Shown piece by piece: positions 33,255 to 56,415 of a stretch of DNA of 64,000 bases (the first letter of the stretch is position 1; the number at the start of each line of letters is the position of its first letter). The notes beneath the pieces were generated by a model. It made no database searches and had not been told where the DNA came from. It was given only the letters and a program-made list of their open reading frames with translations. Source of the stretch: Lacinutrix sp. MedPE-SW (GTDB lineage: Bacteria; Bacteroidota; Bacteroidia; Flavobacteriales; Flavobacteriaceae); NCBI RefSeq assembly GCF_001874145.1, contig NZ_MPCX01000001.1, forward strand, positions 310,001 to 374,000, written 5' to 3'. A program made the position numbers and the translations under genes.

Positions 33255-34079
33255 TTAATCTACGTGCTCGTAAGGGTATTCAAGACTTAACATTGTGCCT
33301 TCTCCAACTTTAGAGGTTAAATTATAAGTTGTATTTATTAACTCTGCACGACTTTTCATGTTTAGTAATCCTGAACCTTTTTTAATAGTTGACATATCGA
33401 AACCAATGCCATCATCACTAGCAGTAATTATTAGCTTTTCTGGTTTATAATTTAAAATTACGCTAAGGTTTTTAGCTTCAGAATATTTTACTGTATTAGA
33501 AAAGAATTCTTGTAAAATTCTAAATACAATAATTTCATGTTTTTTATTTGCAAACGGAACAACATCTCCTTTAACTTGTAATTCTGCCGAAGCGAATTTC
33601 ATTTTTTTAAGCCTATTTAATTCGTTAGTAATAGACTGTTCAAATCCTATATTTAATATCACCTCATTATTTAAAGATCGTGATAACATACGTACTTCTT
33701 TTAAACTTTCTTTTACCGTACTTGCTGCCTCAGAGAAGTTATCCTTTACCTCTTCACTAATTTGTGTTTTTAAAATATTCATTTGCATACTTGCAGCTGC
33801 CAATAATTGACCTACATTATCATGTAATTCCCAACCAATATTTTTTAAAGTTTGCTCTTGAATTTCGGTTTGTGCATTAGACAACTCTTCTTCAAAAGCT
33901 TGTTGTTGTTTGATTTTATCAATTAATAATTTGTTTTTTCGTTTTTGAAAAACAATAAAAAATAGAATAACTAAAGTGGTTACAATAATTAAAACGCCTA
34001 TCATATAAATTAATAAATAGCGTTCTGCAGCTGTAGAAACTTTAGGTTGTTGAAATAAAATTAATAAAAGGTTATTCAT
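33255..34079 (-). CDS. Sensor histidine kinase (HisKA_3 type) at the end of the 7TM array
   Basis: A 274-residue NarX/DesK-type kinase. One membrane span sits at about 22-44 after a short outside N-terminus, with a coiled linker at 45-78. The phospho-acceptor motif is ELHDNVGQ (His86). The ATPase domain has the N-box EFFSNTVKYS (Asn195 region), DDGIGF (222-227), and KGSGLLNM (234-241). There is no sensory domain of its own, so signal input may come from the 7TM proteins encoded upstream (inference). Its ATG overlaps the TGA of the preceding 7TM gene (ATGA). No response regulator follows. Confidence 0.92.
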   Translation of the reverse strand: MNNLLLILFQQPKVSTAAERYLLIYMIGVLIIVTTLVILFFIVFQKRKNKLLIDKIKQQQAFEEELSNAQTEIQEQTLKNIGWELHDNVGQLLAAASMQMNILKTQISEEVKDNFSEAASTVKESLKEVRMLSRSLNNEVILNIGFEQSITNELNRLKKMKFASAELQVKGDVVPFANKKHEIIVFRILQEFFSNTVKYSEAKNLSVILNYKPEKLIITASDDGIGFDMSTIKKGSGLLNMKSRAELINTTYNLTSKVGEGTMLSLEYPYEHVD

Positions 34080-34780
34080 TTATTTATCTTTGGTTTAGAG
34101 ATAATTAGACCGATAGCAAAACAAGAATACATAAAGATATTGGCAAAAACAAAAATGCGTCGTTTTAAATTTGCAAAATCCCAATCTGCTTCGGTATTAT
34201 AAATATTGAAAAATAGAATTGGAGTTATAATTAACCACCAAATTAATAATGCACTTAAAGCATAAAAGCTAAAAGTGCTAAATGCGTTTAGTAACTTATT
34301 TGAGTTTACAAACTCTAAAAAATATATACTACAAGCGATTAATATTGAAAAAGCTCCTAAAAATTGATATAATGGATGATGTTCTTTTAAAAACACATTA
34401 GGATAAAGCAAAAAATGACTAAGCATTATTACTAAAAACATAACGTTTAAAACTCTAACTATCCATTTGTTTGTATTGTTTTCTAATACTTTTTGAATAT
34501 AATAAAGCACAAATATTACACTTCCAAATAACCAAGCTAAGTTATACCACGCAGTAGAATAAAAGTTTAAACTAATTAAATATTTAGTGATAGGAAATGA
34601 TTTAAAATAAAAAAATGAAATACCCACAAGCTCTACAAACATTACATAAGCTATATAAAAAATAAAAACTCTAGTAGATGTGTATTTAAATTTTTTAAAA
34701 TAAAAAACGGCAACAATTAGGGCAAAAAACTCAAATACATAAGTTATGTAATTGAAATACTTAGTTAAAAAATCTACCAC
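34076..34780 (-). CDS. Seven-TM array protein D
   Basis: A 234-residue membrane protein with about seven spans, paralogous to the three other array proteins. Shared parts are an N-terminal KKFKYTSTRVFIFYIAYVMFVE-like block, WLIITPILFF before a DWDFANLK loop, and the C-terminal span with FANIFMYSCFAIGLIISKP. The tail is only a few residues long, so it has no attached enzyme. It is the most diverged member (NLAWLF replaces the NYWWYQIFW found in B and C). It is coupled to the histidine kinase by an ATGA overlap, suggesting a direct receptor-kinase pair (inference). Confidence 0.85.
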   Translation of the reverse strand: MVDFLTKYFNYITYVFEFFALIVAVFYFKKFKYTSTRVFIFYIAYVMFVELVGISFFYFKSFPITKYLISLNFYSTAWYNLAWLFGSVIFVLYYIQKVLENNTNKWIVRVLNVMFLVIMLSHFLLYPNVFLKEHHPLYQFLGAFSILIACSIYFLEFVNSNKLLNAFSTFSFYALSALLIWWLIITPILFFNIYNTEADWDFANLKRRIFVFANIFMYSCFAIGLIISKPKINK

Positions 34781-34795
34781 TAATTCTTAGTTTAT

Positions 34796-35518
34796 TTATG
34801 TTATTAATTTATTGGGTTTAGATACAATTAATCCAACGGTAAAAGTACTATACATAAATACATTTGCAAAAAACATTATCTGCCATTTTAAAATAATAAA
34901 ATTCCAATCTGAGGTATTAAAGTAGCTTTCAAAAAAAGTTAATGGTGTTATTAAAATTATAAAAATTAAAAAACCACAGCTTATATAAAACGTTAAGTTG
35001 TAATAGAATTTTAAAATTTTTTCTGTGTTTAAAGTTTGAAAAAAATAATTAATAATTAATAAAAGTATTGTAATAAAACTTAATACATCTAAAATTTCAA
35101 TATTATTATTTTTTAGAGTTTGGCTCTTAAAAACAATTAAAAGTATTGAAATTAATAGAAATACATAACCCAATCTGGAAATATTTTTTTTAGCGTTTTT
35201 ATTCTTTTCTATTTTATAATAATAAAAACATAAAAACAATGCTGAACCTGAAACCCAAAATATTTGATACCACCAATAATTTTTTTGAAATATTGTACCA
35301 GCAACTAATTCTTTTATAAAACGTAAACTTTCATACTTATTTATATATATAGTATAAGACCCAATATTTTCAACAAATAAAATATAAATTAAAAAGTATA
35401 TAAAATACCGTTCATGATGACCTTTAAACTTTTTAAAACAAATAATTCCTGTAACAGCAGCAAGAATTTCAAGTGCTTTTATTATTATGGAATAATATGC
35501 TATAAAAAATTCTTTCAA
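34796..35518 (-). CDS. Seven-TM array protein C
   Basis: A 240-residue, seven-span protein of the same family, closest to protein B: EILAAVTGIICFKKFKGHHE, YFLIYILFVENIGSYTIY, NYWWYQIFWVSGS, and C-terminal LKWQIMFFANVFMYSTFTVG followed by LIVSKP. The start is TTG (complement of 35516-35518), which overlaps the TGA of protein B (TTGA). No usable ATG lies downstream, so this is a start-stop overlap with an unusual initiation codon. Gap to protein D is 15 bases. Confidence 0.85.
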   Translation of the reverse strand: MKEFFIAYYSIIIKALEILAAVTGIICFKKFKGHHERYFIYFLIYILFVENIGSYTIYINKYESLRFIKELVAGTIFQKNYWWYQIFWVSGSALFLCFYYYKIEKNKNAKKNISRLGYVFLLISILLIVFKSQTLKNNNIEILDVLSFITILLLIINYFFQTLNTEKILKFYYNLTFYISCGFLIFIILITPLTFFESYFNTSDWNFIILKWQIMFFANVFMYSTFTVGLIVSKPNKLIT

Positions 35519-36258
35519 TATTTTAATTTCTCGTTTGGTTTTATCGCTTTTTCTGGTTTAGAAACAATTAATCCAATGGTGAATATGGTATACATAAATA
35601 GAATTGCAAATAAGAATATTTGCCATTTTAAAATAATAAAGTTCCAATCTGCATCATAGAAATAAACTTCATAAAATGTCATAGGTGTTACTATTAACCA
35701 AAATAATAAAATACCAATGCTTATATATAAGTTTATAAGCTTGTAGAAGTATAATATTTGGTTAGATCTTAAAAGTTCAAAAAAATAGCTAAATACTAAA
35801 AACAATACCACTGCCAAACTAAGCAAGTCTATAATTTTAATAAATCCGTAGTTAAGGGCATTCCATTTAAATATTAATAGTAAAAAAGAAGTAAGTAAAA
35901 AGAAAAAAGCGATTATTTTAATACTTTTTTTTATAACAATATTTTTTGATGTTTTATAAAAATAGAAGGAAAAGAAAAGTGGACTGCCAATAATCCAAAA
36001 AATTTGGTACCACCAATAATTCTTTATAAAAACAGTATCTTTTATGGAGTTTGATAATGAATCAAGATAGTCGTAATTACCAATTAACTTTGTATAGTTT
36101 CCAAAATTTTCAACAAATACTGCATATATCAAAAAATAAATAAAGTAAATCACAGCTGTTCCTTTATATTTTTTTAAACAAAAAATACCAGTAACAGCTG
36201 CAATAATTTCTATTCCTTTTGTAATATTTGTAAAATTATTTTGAATAAATGATTCCAT
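35515..36258 (-). CDS. Seven-TM array protein B
   Basis: A 247-residue, seven-span protein of the array family. It has EIIAAVTGIFCLKKYKGTAV, FVENFGNYTKL, NYWWYQIFWIIGSPLFFSF, WLIVTPMTFYEVY-DADWNFIILK and a final span ending FMYTIFTIGLIVSKP. It starts from ATG seven bases after the stop of small protein B. The C-terminal tail (EKAIKPNEKLKY) is longer and basic, hence probably cytoplasmic. Confidence 0.85.
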   Translation of the reverse strand: MESFIQNNFTNITKGIEIIAAVTGIFCLKKYKGTAVIYFIYFLIYAVFVENFGNYTKLIGNYDYLDSLSNSIKDTVFIKNYWWYQIFWIIGSPLFFSFYFYKTSKNIVIKKSIKIIAFFFLLTSFLLLIFKWNALNYGFIKIIDLLSLAVVLFLVFSYFFELLRSNQILYFYKLINLYISIGILLFWLIVTPMTFYEVYFYDADWNFIILKWQIFLFAILFMYTIFTIGLIVSKPEKAIKPNEKLKY

Positions 36259-36265
36259 CCAAATT

Positions 36266-36757
36266 CTACTGAGGATAATTTGCTCCTGGAGGAGTACCTC
36301 CTTGTCCCATATTTAAAGGATCTGCATCAGGTATATCATTATTTCCTCCTAGTTGTGAACCTCCTTTATCTCCTATTCCTGAAGCTGTAGGCACTAAAAA
36401 CATTGTAGTATACCCAACATCCTCACCTTGAGTAGGGTAAGCACCTAAGTAAACACGAATACCATTCATATCAAAACCTAAATCACTACTTTGGTTTTGT
36501 GCATATACTATATAATTTTGAATATCTTCTAAGGACCACCAGGCCGAACGGTTATCTGCTTTATTAACAATATCTTTACTAATAAGTGCATGTCTAGAGT
36601 TATAAGCTTTGTCTAAAACTCTTGCTTCGCTAGGTGTTATAACACCTGTAGGCTTTGTAACTTCTACAGCACCTTCATCTGTGTTTTTATTGCATATAAA
36701 ATACATAATAAGTGCGCCAATAATTAAGCCTAATAAAAGGGTAATAAAATTTTTCAT
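36266..36757 (-). CDS. Small array protein B, membrane-anchored, ending YPQ
   Basis: A 163-residue protein with an N-terminal membrane span (about 4-21) that gives no clear lipobox, so it is likely an anchored periplasmic or cytoplasmic domain. It shares with small protein A: PTGVITPSEARVL (36-48), DNRSAWWSLEDIQNYI (68-83), NGIRVYLGAYPT (98-109), and TMFLVPT (118-124). A Gly/Pro/Asp-rich low-complexity tail ends in NYPQ. It has no known family. The pairing with an immediately following 7TM gene is repeated in both halves of the array. Confidence 0.8.
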   Translation of the reverse strand: MKNFITLLLGLIIGALIMYFICNKNTDEGAVEVTKPTGVITPSEARVLDKAYNSRHALISKDIVNKADNRSAWWSLEDIQNYIVYAQNQSSDLGFDMNGIRVYLGAYPTQGEDVGYTTMFLVPTASGIGDKGGSQLGGNNDIPDADPLNMGQGGTPPGANYPQ

Positions 36758-36903
36758 TGTGATTTGATTAATTTGTTGGTTATTAAAATTATTATAAATT
36801 ACTTTTTCAAAATCATAAAAGCCTAAAATGTTAAGCTCTTTTTGTAAAGTGTAATTTTAGTTAATAGCGTTTTAAATGTAGTGAAAAAAATCCATTAAAA
36901 AAT
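36758..36903. other. Intergenic gap between the two array modules
   Basis: An AT-rich spacer of 146 bases, the only substantial gap in the array. It probably holds the promoter of the second module (small B to kinase) on the minus strand. No hairpin with a T-run is evident. Confidence 0.5.
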
Positions 36904-37605
36904 TTAATTTTCTGGTTTTGAAACAATTAAACCAATAGAAAAGACAGAATACATAAATATATTTGCAAATATGTATATACTTCTTTTTAGTTGTTTAAAA
37001 TAGATATCTTCTGTTATATAATATTTATCGAAAAATACTACTGGCGTCACAATTAACCACCAAAGAAAAATAGTGATACTCACATAAAAGTATAATGATT
37101 TTGAAAACATTAGCACTTTTTCACTTTGTAAGATTTCTATAAAATATAATGTTGTACACAATAATATAAATATTGCTTCAATTATATAAATTTGAGAATA
37201 TGTACCTATAAATAGGTTTTCAAAATCATTTAAAACAACTACAATAAAAGCAATAATGTAAGTTATACTTAAATATTTAACATACCTTTTATGTTCTTTT
37301 TTAATTAAGATTTTATGGTAAAAAACAGCAAAAAGTAATACAGCTATAAAATCGAAAAATAAGGTATACCACCAATAATTAGCTTCAAACTTAGTACCTG
37401 CTATAAAACTTAAAAAAGAAAAAGAATTACAGTAATATGTATACATAGCAAGCACATCTATAAAAAATAGATACACTAAAATGCTTATAAAAAATGTAGC
37501 TGATGTATTTTTATATTTTTTTATATGAAACACACCTATTACGGCTGCAATAAATTGTAAACCGTGAGTAATTATGTGATTGTTTTTAAATAAAAACTCT
37601 AACAT
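36904..37605 (-). CDS. Seven-TM array protein A
   Basis: A 233-residue, seven-span protein. I start at ATG 37605 (GTG one codon upstream is possible). It has the family pattern: a first span with QFIAAVIGVFHIKKYKNTSA, NYWWYTLFFDFIAVLLF, WLIVTPVVFFDKYYITEDIYFKQLK, and the final FANIFMYSVFSIGLIVSKP. It follows small protein A by six bases. It differs from B-D in replacing the DW-F loop with EDIYFKQLK. Confidence 0.85.
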   Translation of the reverse strand: MLEFLFKNNHIITHGLQFIAAVIGVFHIKKYKNTSATFFISILVYLFFIDVLAMYTYYCNSFSFLSFIAGTKFEANYWWYTLFFDFIAVLLFAVFYHKILIKKEHKRYVKYLSITYIIAFIVVVLNDFENLFIGTYSQIYIIEAIFILLCTTLYFIEILQSEKVLMFSKSLYFYVSITIFLWWLIVTPVVFFDKYYITEDIYFKQLKRSIYIFANIFMYSVFSIGLIVSKPEN

Positions 37606-37611
37606 CACTTA

Positions 37612-37965
37612 CTATTGAGGATAAGATCGACCTCCGCCAACTCCACCTCTATCCATACCACTTGCTTCTGCTATATCTGCGTTTTCTCCATCTTTTTCTT
37701 CAGTTGGAACCATGAAAATAGTAGTTAAACCTTTTGGGTCTGTTTCTGTTGTTTCGACTCCTAAATAGAATCTAATTCCGTTTACATTTGGATTTTCATT
37801 TTTAATTAATTCAATATACTGTTCCATGTCTTCTAAAGAATACCAAGACGATCTATTATCATCTTGTCCTGCAGAGCTTTTATTAGCACTTGCTCTTAGT
37901 CTTGTCCAGTTATCGTTTAATTCTTTTGCTTGTTTTGGAGTAATAATCCCACTTGGATTAGGCAT
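37612..37965 (-). CDS. Small array protein A, soluble, ending YPQ
   Basis: A 117-residue protein with no signal peptide or anchor, so it is probably cytoplasmic, unlike small protein B. Shared motifs are PSGIITPKQAKEL (4-16), DNRSSWYSLEDMEQYI (36-51), NGIRFYLGV (62-70), and TTIFMVPT (81-88). The Gly-rich tail ends SYPQ. It is the first gene of the block, followed six bases later by a 7TM gene. Function unknown. Confidence 0.8.
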   Translation of the reverse strand: MPNPSGIITPKQAKELNDNWTRLRASANKSSAGQDDNRSSWYSLEDMEQYIELIKNENPNVNGIRFYLGVETTETDPKGLTTIFMVPTEEKDGENADIAEASGMDRGGVGGGRSYPQ

Positions 37966-38029
37966 AATATTTAGTTTTGGTTAATAGCGTTATAATTTTT
38001 AAAAATAATAATTTTAATTTAATAGTTGG

Positions 38030-55644: not shown

Positions 55645-56415
55645 CTATAATAAAGTCATATCCATTTTTAACATACCTACTAATTCTCCAGTTGAAGATA
55701 TTTTTAATTTTTTTAAAATATTTCTTCGGTGTGTGTCTACCGTATGCGGACTTATATTTAGTTTTTCGGAAATTTCTTTACTAGTAAAATTTAGTATTAG
55801 TAGACGTATTACATCGCGTTCTCTATTGCTTATTCCTGCATGTAATAATTTTTGAGAAAAGTTATTATAATATACAGTTTCGTACTCATTTTTATTATTT
55901 AATAACTTTGCCGTTGCGGTTATTGGCAAGTTTAATTCAATATTTAAAACGGTATAATGCGCTAGACCAATTATAGGTTTCATTTCACTATCAAAAGCCA
56001 ATGGTGTAGTGTTTTGTATAATGTTTACGTACTTATCGCTAGCATTTTTTATTCTATAATTCCATGTATAATTAGCAAGTTCTCTTTTGTTTTCGGGTAT
56101 TTCGGCCAAAGTAAACTCCATTAAACTATTTAAAGCGCCTAACCAGATTTCTATGTCTTCTGGATGAATTCTACTCCAAAAGTATTTCATTCCTTTTACT
56201 TTTAAATCTGTAGCATCTAAACCTAAACAAGAGGTAAAGTTTTTGCTTATATATTCAAAAGTAAGCTCTTGGGTATTTGTTAAACAGAAAAAAGTAGAAC
56301 TGTATGGCAAATACGTATCTAGCTCAATAATTTTTTTAATATGTGTTTCTAGCGATGGTTTAGTGTAAGATTCAAAAATAGATTTATAAACCTCTTTTAT
56401 TTCTTGGTGTTTCAT
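55645..56415 (-). CDS. PAS-domain LuxR-type transcriptional regulator
   Basis: A 256-residue cytoplasmic regulator. The middle part (about 45-160) has a PAS-like fold (FEYISKNFTSCLGLDATDLKVKG, then WSRIHPEDIEIW, then YRIKNASDKYVNIIQNTTPL). The C-terminus is a LuxR/NarL helix-turn-helix at about 190-250 (RERDVIRLLILNFTSKEISE, LNISPHTVDTHRRNILKKL). There is no REC domain or phospho-acceptor Asp, so it should sense a ligand or redox state by the PAS domain. It lies 54 bases downstream of the CPBP gene and may be co-transcribed. Confidence 0.88.
   Translation of the reverse strand: MKHQEIKEVYKSIFESYTKPSLETHIKKIIELDTYLPYSSTFFCLTNTQELTFEYISKNFTSCLGLDATDLKVKGMKYFWSRIHPEDIEIWLGALNSLMEFTLAEIPENKRELANYTWNYRIKNASDKYVNIIQNTTPLAFDSEMKPIIGLAHYTVLNIELNLPITATAKLLNNKNEYETVYYNNFSQKLLHAGISNRERDVIRLLILNFTSKEISEKLNISPHTVDTHRRNILKKLKISSTGELVGMLKMDMTLL

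Follow-up and report, generated by a model that had tools for sequence, protein, structure and literature searches.

A row of small-protein and seven-helix-protein genes ahead of a sensor-less histidine kinase in Lacinutrix sp. MedPE-SW looks like an enlarged copy of a gene set recurring in many Bacteroidota

Sugar-phosphate sensing in enterobacteria relies on UhpC-UhpB-UhpA, in which UhpC is homologous to transporters and UhpB spans the membrane many times, and the sensory rhodopsins with their separate transducer, as well as the outline of G-protein-coupled receptors (GPCRs), are further systems close to the one described here. According to a published account of BtsS (PMC10653868), this LytS-type seven-transmembrane (7TM) kinase has seven helices with a periplasmic N terminus, which feed a histidine kinase in one chain. 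In this study, we analyzed a stretch of 64,000 nucleotides from Lacinutrix sp. MedPE-SW (contig NZ_MPCX01000001.1, positions 310,001 to 374,000; hereafter the window), which carries on its minus strand, from position 37965 to 33255, a row of seven genes for small proteins (S), seven-helix membrane proteins (T) and a histidine kinase (K). Many Bacteroidota carry a gene set of which this row looks like an enlarged copy, and which would represent an undescribed form of sensing via a separate seven-helix protein. With moderate confidence, we read it as an expanded copy of a Bacteroidota signaling cassette, S-T-K with or without a response regulator (R), in which S is the dedicated partner of T, and T drives a kinase that lacks its own sensor.

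Along the minus strand, the order is small1 (S, 37612..37965), 7TM-a (T, 36904..37608), small2 (S, 36266..36757), 7TM-b (T, 35515..36258), 7TM-c (T, 34796..35518), 7TM-d (T, 34076..34780) and the kinase (33255..34079), with all seven genes lying where a first-pass annotation of this DNA had placed them. The 117-residue small1 has neither signal peptide nor membrane segment and ends in YPQ, and is immediately followed by 7TM-a (234 residues, GTG start), while small2 (163 residues) consists of an N-terminal membrane anchor, a linker, a conserved core and a GTPPGANYPQ tail. The remaining T proteins comprise 247 residues (7TM-b, whose predicted model has a mean predicted local distance difference test score, pLDDT, of 93), 240 residues (7TM-c, TTG start) and 234 residues (7TM-d, GTG start). 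The annotated 4-base overlaps, TTGA between 7TM-b and 7TM-c and ATGA between 7TM-d and the kinase, are present, whereas the annotated gaps of 6–16 bases had to be revised: the coordinates give 3 bases between small1 and 7TM-a (6 if 7TM-a begins at its second codon, ATG), 146 between 7TM-a and small2, 7 between small2 and 7TM-b, and 15 between 7TM-c and 7TM-d. Based on these spacings, the locus consists of two S-T units, two further T genes and the kinase. Both small genes are present in their own genome only at this locus, barring one match at E=0.02, which together with the recurrence in other genera argues for an arrangement beyond chance.

The coupling of S and T was surveyed in 120 genomes of the same family, own genome (G000) included, of which 71 contained S and 75 contained T (both in 67, S only in 4, T only in 8). 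A same-strand T lay within 1.5 kb of 94 of the 99 S matches, and downstream for 92 of these 94; conversely, 107/119 T matches had an S within 5 kb. Some of the exceptions were contig edges or profile misses, and a better profile later recovered an adjoining S in G018 and G026, and an adjoining T in G071 (L121, L122, L085). Thus, S and T are not independent of each other in these genomes, and the possible match to a described family was also checked: neither S nor T of the window matched a Pfam or NCBIfam family over cut-off, PADLOC gave no match either, and when 64 S and 77 T relatives were scanned singly, no family was matched by more than two members.

Gene neighborhoods were then compared in four sets. 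Set A (60 selected loci from the S and T matches plus the window) contained 69 runs of T genes, preceded by S in 65 and followed by K in 56 and by another S in 8. Set B (52 loci from named genomes, e.g. Lacinutrix, Bizionia, Olleya and Algibacter, all found via the T profile) contained 58 runs, or 48 once 9 loci repeating set A were removed, with S before 46 (the other 2 at edges), and K after 42, another S after 5 and an edge after 1. Among the 39 runs of set C (38 loci from a class search, L214 having no T gene in the gene caller), a recognized S preceded 14 and an S-like motif 17 (31/39 together), and K followed 35. Set D (20 picked loci, mostly weaker and more distant T matches, L310 having no T gene) gave 22 runs, with S before 4, an S-like motif before 9 (13/22 together), and K by a HisKA_3-type profile after 13. 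The loose S motif also occurs in 73/978 other genes (~7%), so a few of the motif calls may be due to chance. The pattern that repeats is an S gene, then one to four T genes, then a kinase gene, to which a NarL-type regulator is often added, and no other gene family was kept with the cassette in the neighborhood lists besides R and syntenic neighbors. At E 1e-5, a deep T profile, from whose matches the set D loci were picked, matched 84 of 395 genomes of the phylum, 8 of them outside the class. Searches of open-licence papers gave no description of an S-T-K cassette, which does not establish its absence from print overall.

The window kinase contains PF07730 (HisKA_3, 42.2 bits, cut-off 24) and PF02518 (HATPase_c, 35.3 bits, cut-off 26.4), preceded by one N-terminal span, and Pfam finds no extracellular or PAS/GAF sensor domain in it, in agreement with its annotation as a single-span kinase without its own sensor. 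The same architecture is common in the cassette: exactly one span lies before the H-box in 141 of the 146 non-redundant kinases directly after T (148/154 with repeats included). T and kinase genes overlap at 132/146 non-redundant junctions (140/154 with repeats), a frequency that is exaggerated because start codons were set as far upstream as possible. Moreover, the kinase class can change under the S-T pair. In L085 of set A, the S-T pair stands ahead of a LytS-type kinase, whose kinase domain is preceded by 56 residues only, and a LytTR regulator, and when four post-T genes of set D missed by the HisKA_3-type profile were examined, three were PAS-HisKA kinases (L307, L309 and L315, the last also with a receiver) and one was a HisKA_2 kinase (L317, no recognizable S). 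Three kinase classes (HisKA_3, LytS-type and PAS-HisKA) thus occur behind S-T, and a fourth, HisKA_2, behind T alone. The annotated proposal that the 7TM proteins feed the kinase gains support from these class changes and from the usual adjacency of the kinase. NarL-type regulators directly follow K in 23/56 cases in set A, 27/35 in set C and 12/13 in set D, with receiver and GerE domains confirmed for one cassette regulator (L106).

The other T proteins of the window are 52, 31 and 36% identical to 7TM-b, and when all four are aligned, 42 columns are invariant, T191-P192, F221-M222-Y223 and S233-K234-P235 among them; the common C-terminal pattern reported for them thus holds, except that 7TM-b reads FMYT and not FMYS. 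Loop charges predict that the N terminus is outside and the C terminus inside. In the predicted model, the outline of the fold may be likened to rhodopsins and GPCRs, with uncertain significance, as the match was not significant. Using hhalign, with the comparison of near and far T (99.9%) as a yardstick, the T profile was joined neither to 7TMR-DISM (PF07695, 2.9% probability) nor to HisKA_7TM (PF16927, 1.9%, or 6.8% with a larger T set). A Pfam scan of 77 T proteins matched 7TMR-DISM in a single member (E 0.042) and did not match HisKA_7TM. Against microbial rhodopsin (PF01036), hhalign gave 0.1%, with only 5 closely related sequences on the rhodopsin side. The retinal-binding lysine in helix 7 of type 1 rhodopsins has no conserved counterpart among 191 T proteins, in which Lys occurs in residues 213–229 in 12, with at most 5 per column; Lys at position 211, at the outer end of helix 7, occurs in 67/191. 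N219 and Y223 of helix 7 occur together in 136/191, 7TM-b itself having I219. This N-x-x-x-Y spacing is similar to the NPxxY motif of GPCRs, but lacks its proline, and the likeness may be coincidence.

Over their common part, small1 and small2 share 42% identity and, as annotated, both contain DNRSxWxSLED and NGIRxYLG and end in YPQ, which is all that small1 retains of the longer tail of small2. The small1 frame reaches just 5 codons upstream of its ATG, and a missed upstream start was accordingly rejected as the cause of its cytosolic form. The S family has diverged strongly. What it keeps is a core resembling GIRxYFG and, separated from the core by a variable stretch, a C-terminal tail that reads PPxxYP in relatives and CPxxC in more distant forms. 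In 56 S sequences of the closer set, G151, G154, Y161 and P162 of the tail are ≥90% conserved, and the core is conserved in the same alignment. The S model has a pLDDT of ~49 in the tail, i.e. low predicted order, which combined with its conservation is as expected of a docking peptide.

Beyond the reach of the S profile, CPx(1-3)C in the last 45 residues was found in 16 of 21 unrecognized genes immediately before T in set C, versus 4/978 other non-redundant neighbors, and a strict S core pattern in 9/21 versus 9/978. Both patterns were composed after inspection of set C; in set D, which was obtained later, 12 of the 22 genes preceding T had a CPxxC-type tail. Such a tail occurs in just 6/134 recognized S, and both window proteins lack these cysteines. 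An hhalign comparison of 118 recognized S with 8 short unrecognized ones gave 94.7% over the core. A simple hydropathy classifier divided 145 non-redundant pre-T genes into 67 anchored, 33 lipoprotein-like and 45 without signal. Net charges before and after the hydrophobic run were +1.6/-0.9 for anchored and +1.9/-1.5 for lipoprotein-like S, from which the core of these forms should face outward. On a T tree of 145 rows, after correction of three S genes that had been misread, parsimony required at least 31 switches of the S form.

The history of the array was followed in a tree of nine loci with two S genes each. The kinase-proximal T of 6/9 loci form one clade (100/100), where 7TM-d groups with those of five other loci, and the T beside small1-like S fall in two clades, one of 6 rows (100/99) and part of another of 9 rows (98/99), the second of which also includes 7TM-b, adjoining small2. 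The S tree of the same loci was largely without resolution. Judged from these clades, several T copies are old and distinct types, in part stable ones, and plain tandem duplication noise was rejected, as several T types cluster across species and not within a genome. Just before the kinase of the nearest relative searched (L063) lies a fragment resembling the end of a T, with an internal stop (G091:C1:2562573-2562689), perhaps the remnant of a kinase-proximal T. Upstream of both small genes of the window is an element, AACGCTATTAACYAAAA, on the minus strand at 37975..37991 (~10 bases before small1) and again at 36855..36871 (~98 bases before small2). These are its only two window matches at ≤2 mismatches, and two or more matches also arose in 2/100 shuffles; folding of copy 2 alone gave no hairpin for that copy. 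Among 247 loci, the exact 12-base core was restricted to own-genome loci and L123, and this near confinement suggests that it may be a duplication trace.

Taken together, we propose that T would be a separately encoded seven-helix membrane receptor or transducer, with the N terminus outside and the C terminus inside, and S its dedicated partner, a small core that is anchored in some forms, through a membrane segment or a lipid, and unanchored in others. As judged from the sequences, S could be a ligand, an adaptor or an accessory subunit, with T as the receptor. The conserved S tail (GxPPxxYP or CPxxC) would most likely dock on T or the T-K complex, and the binding of S, or of what S binds, would alter T. 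T would in turn act by helix-to-helix coupling on the single membrane helix of K, which would phosphorylate a NarL/LuxR-type response regulator, whose gene adjoins K in many other lineages, not in the window. The extra S-T units and T paralogues of the window would provide several inputs into one kinase. A bolder version, which we consider doubtful, would have Bacteroidota possess a large and so far undescribed class of protein-ligand/7TM-receptor pairs, in which S is a fast-diverging protein agonist, tethered or soluble, whose conserved tail enters T, and T is a plug-in receptor taken up by several kinase classes, with window-like lineages gathering several pairs round one kinase.

Other explanations were weighed against the same evidence. 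T could be a transport-type or scaffolding membrane protein with S as its folding or assembly partner, and the kinase either sharing the operon or watching transport; transporter-like sensors feeding HisKA_3 kinases do exist (UhpC-UhpB), no ligand site has been demonstrated in T, and some T have no neighboring kinase. We consider this improbable, given that T is 7-helical with a receptor-like (not significantly so) outline, that a kinase usually adjoins it, with overlapping genes and one span, and that several kinase classes stand behind T. Slightly less probable again is a redox or metal sensor, in which metal binding or disulfide formation by the CPxxC tail is relayed by T, and the Flavobacteriaceae forms, having lost the cysteines, sense another input: it would account for the frequent CPxxC-type tails in sets C and D, but the cysteines are absent from the window and rare among recognized S, while the neighboring genes stay the same. 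The least probable is peptide quorum sensing, with S as a precursor whose C-terminal tail is cleaved, exported and sensed by T. A conserved tail set apart by a variable stretch, anchored and lipoprotein-like forms that would place it outside, and the position of S mostly before its T would all suit a peptide signal, but the tail is not hypervariable but conserved, as is the core, 45 of the 145 non-redundant upstream proteins have no export signal (by a rough classifier), and no further gene family other than R and syntenic neighbors accompanies the cassette in the neighborhood lists.

Several observations also weigh against the cassette as we read it. The runs of L119-L121, L203, L224, L322 and L323 have no same-strand kinase next to them, and no recognizable S precedes 8/39 runs of set C and 9/22 of set D, where T is distant; the plain S profile matched 12 of 295 class genomes, as compared with 44 for the T profile, some of them weakly. 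The kinase-proximal T is of another type in 3/9 two-S loci (L063, L071, L117). The window kinase has no regulator beside it, nor is any of the 50 set B kinases followed by one, and the best own-genome regulators are 26–27% identical to cassette R. In addition, parsimony on the 145-row T tree requires at least 25 switches of S between exported and non-exported forms, which one docking side does not explain; any docking model is weakest here, in having one partner work from both sides of the membrane. Either of the two best own-genome NarL regulators (contigs C21 and C16) could serve the window kinase, and no adjoining kinases were seen by eye in the stretches read. The one on contig C21 (G000, L238 3540-4163, minus strand) is flanked by dnaG-like and nadE-like genes, with a gldB-like lipoprotein close by (names by eye).

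Further observations concern the surroundings of the cassette and other regulators of the genome. In 4/153 neighborhoods, repeats included (L106, L108, L110, L115), an S-T-K-R cassette lies divergently beside an extracellular contractile injection system (eCIS)-type cluster, with Pvc16_N and sheath identified by Pfam in L106 and L110, while the tail tube was recognized in L110 through Pfam and in L106 and L115 through a sequence match; L108 has only a tube-like gene and a shared unnamed gene near its cassette. The S-T pairs of L119, L120 and L121, with no adjoining kinase, are beside a gene with a start like that of the transcription terminator Rho (named by eye). Elsewhere in the own genome (contig C19, L240 1483-2760), a 7TMR-DISM region is in frame with a LuxR-type (GerE) DNA-binding domain, and the product looks like a membrane-bound receptor-regulator, while the window itself encodes, at 55645-56415 on the minus strand, a protein of 256 residues that combines a GerE DNA-binding domain with an N-terminal part, PAS-like by eye.

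If the proposed cassette is true, S and T are two uncatalogued, widely partnered families that would offer a testable input for seemingly sensor-less Bacteroidota kinases, and a natural example of a receptor module transferred from one kinase class to another. The cassette is also a small system for asking how a separate seven-helix protein signals to a single kinase helix. Among bacterial seven-helix modules ahead of signaling domains, it is comparable to 7TMR-DISM and HisKA_7TM, but these lie within larger proteins (open frames of 452–813 and 591–1039 residues) whereas T is free-standing. GPCRs couple to G proteins; the neighbors of T are histidine kinases. As in UhpC-UhpB-UhpA, a HisKA_3 kinase and a NarL-type regulator are encoded along with a polytopic membrane sensor that is a protein of its own, but the cassette differs in its 7-helical T, its single-span K and an S without counterpart; the window kinase scored 87.4 bits against the NCBIfam UhpB model, far under the 408-bit cut-off. 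To our knowledge, neither UhpC-UhpB-UhpA nor BtsS has an S partner. BtsS is alike in that seven helices with the N terminus outside feed a histidine kinase (PMC10653868), and unlike in joining them in one chain, where the cassette has two genes plus S. On balance, the function suggested for the cassette most resembles that of UhpC-UhpB-UhpA, while its predicted seven-helix input with an outer N terminus resembles BtsS.

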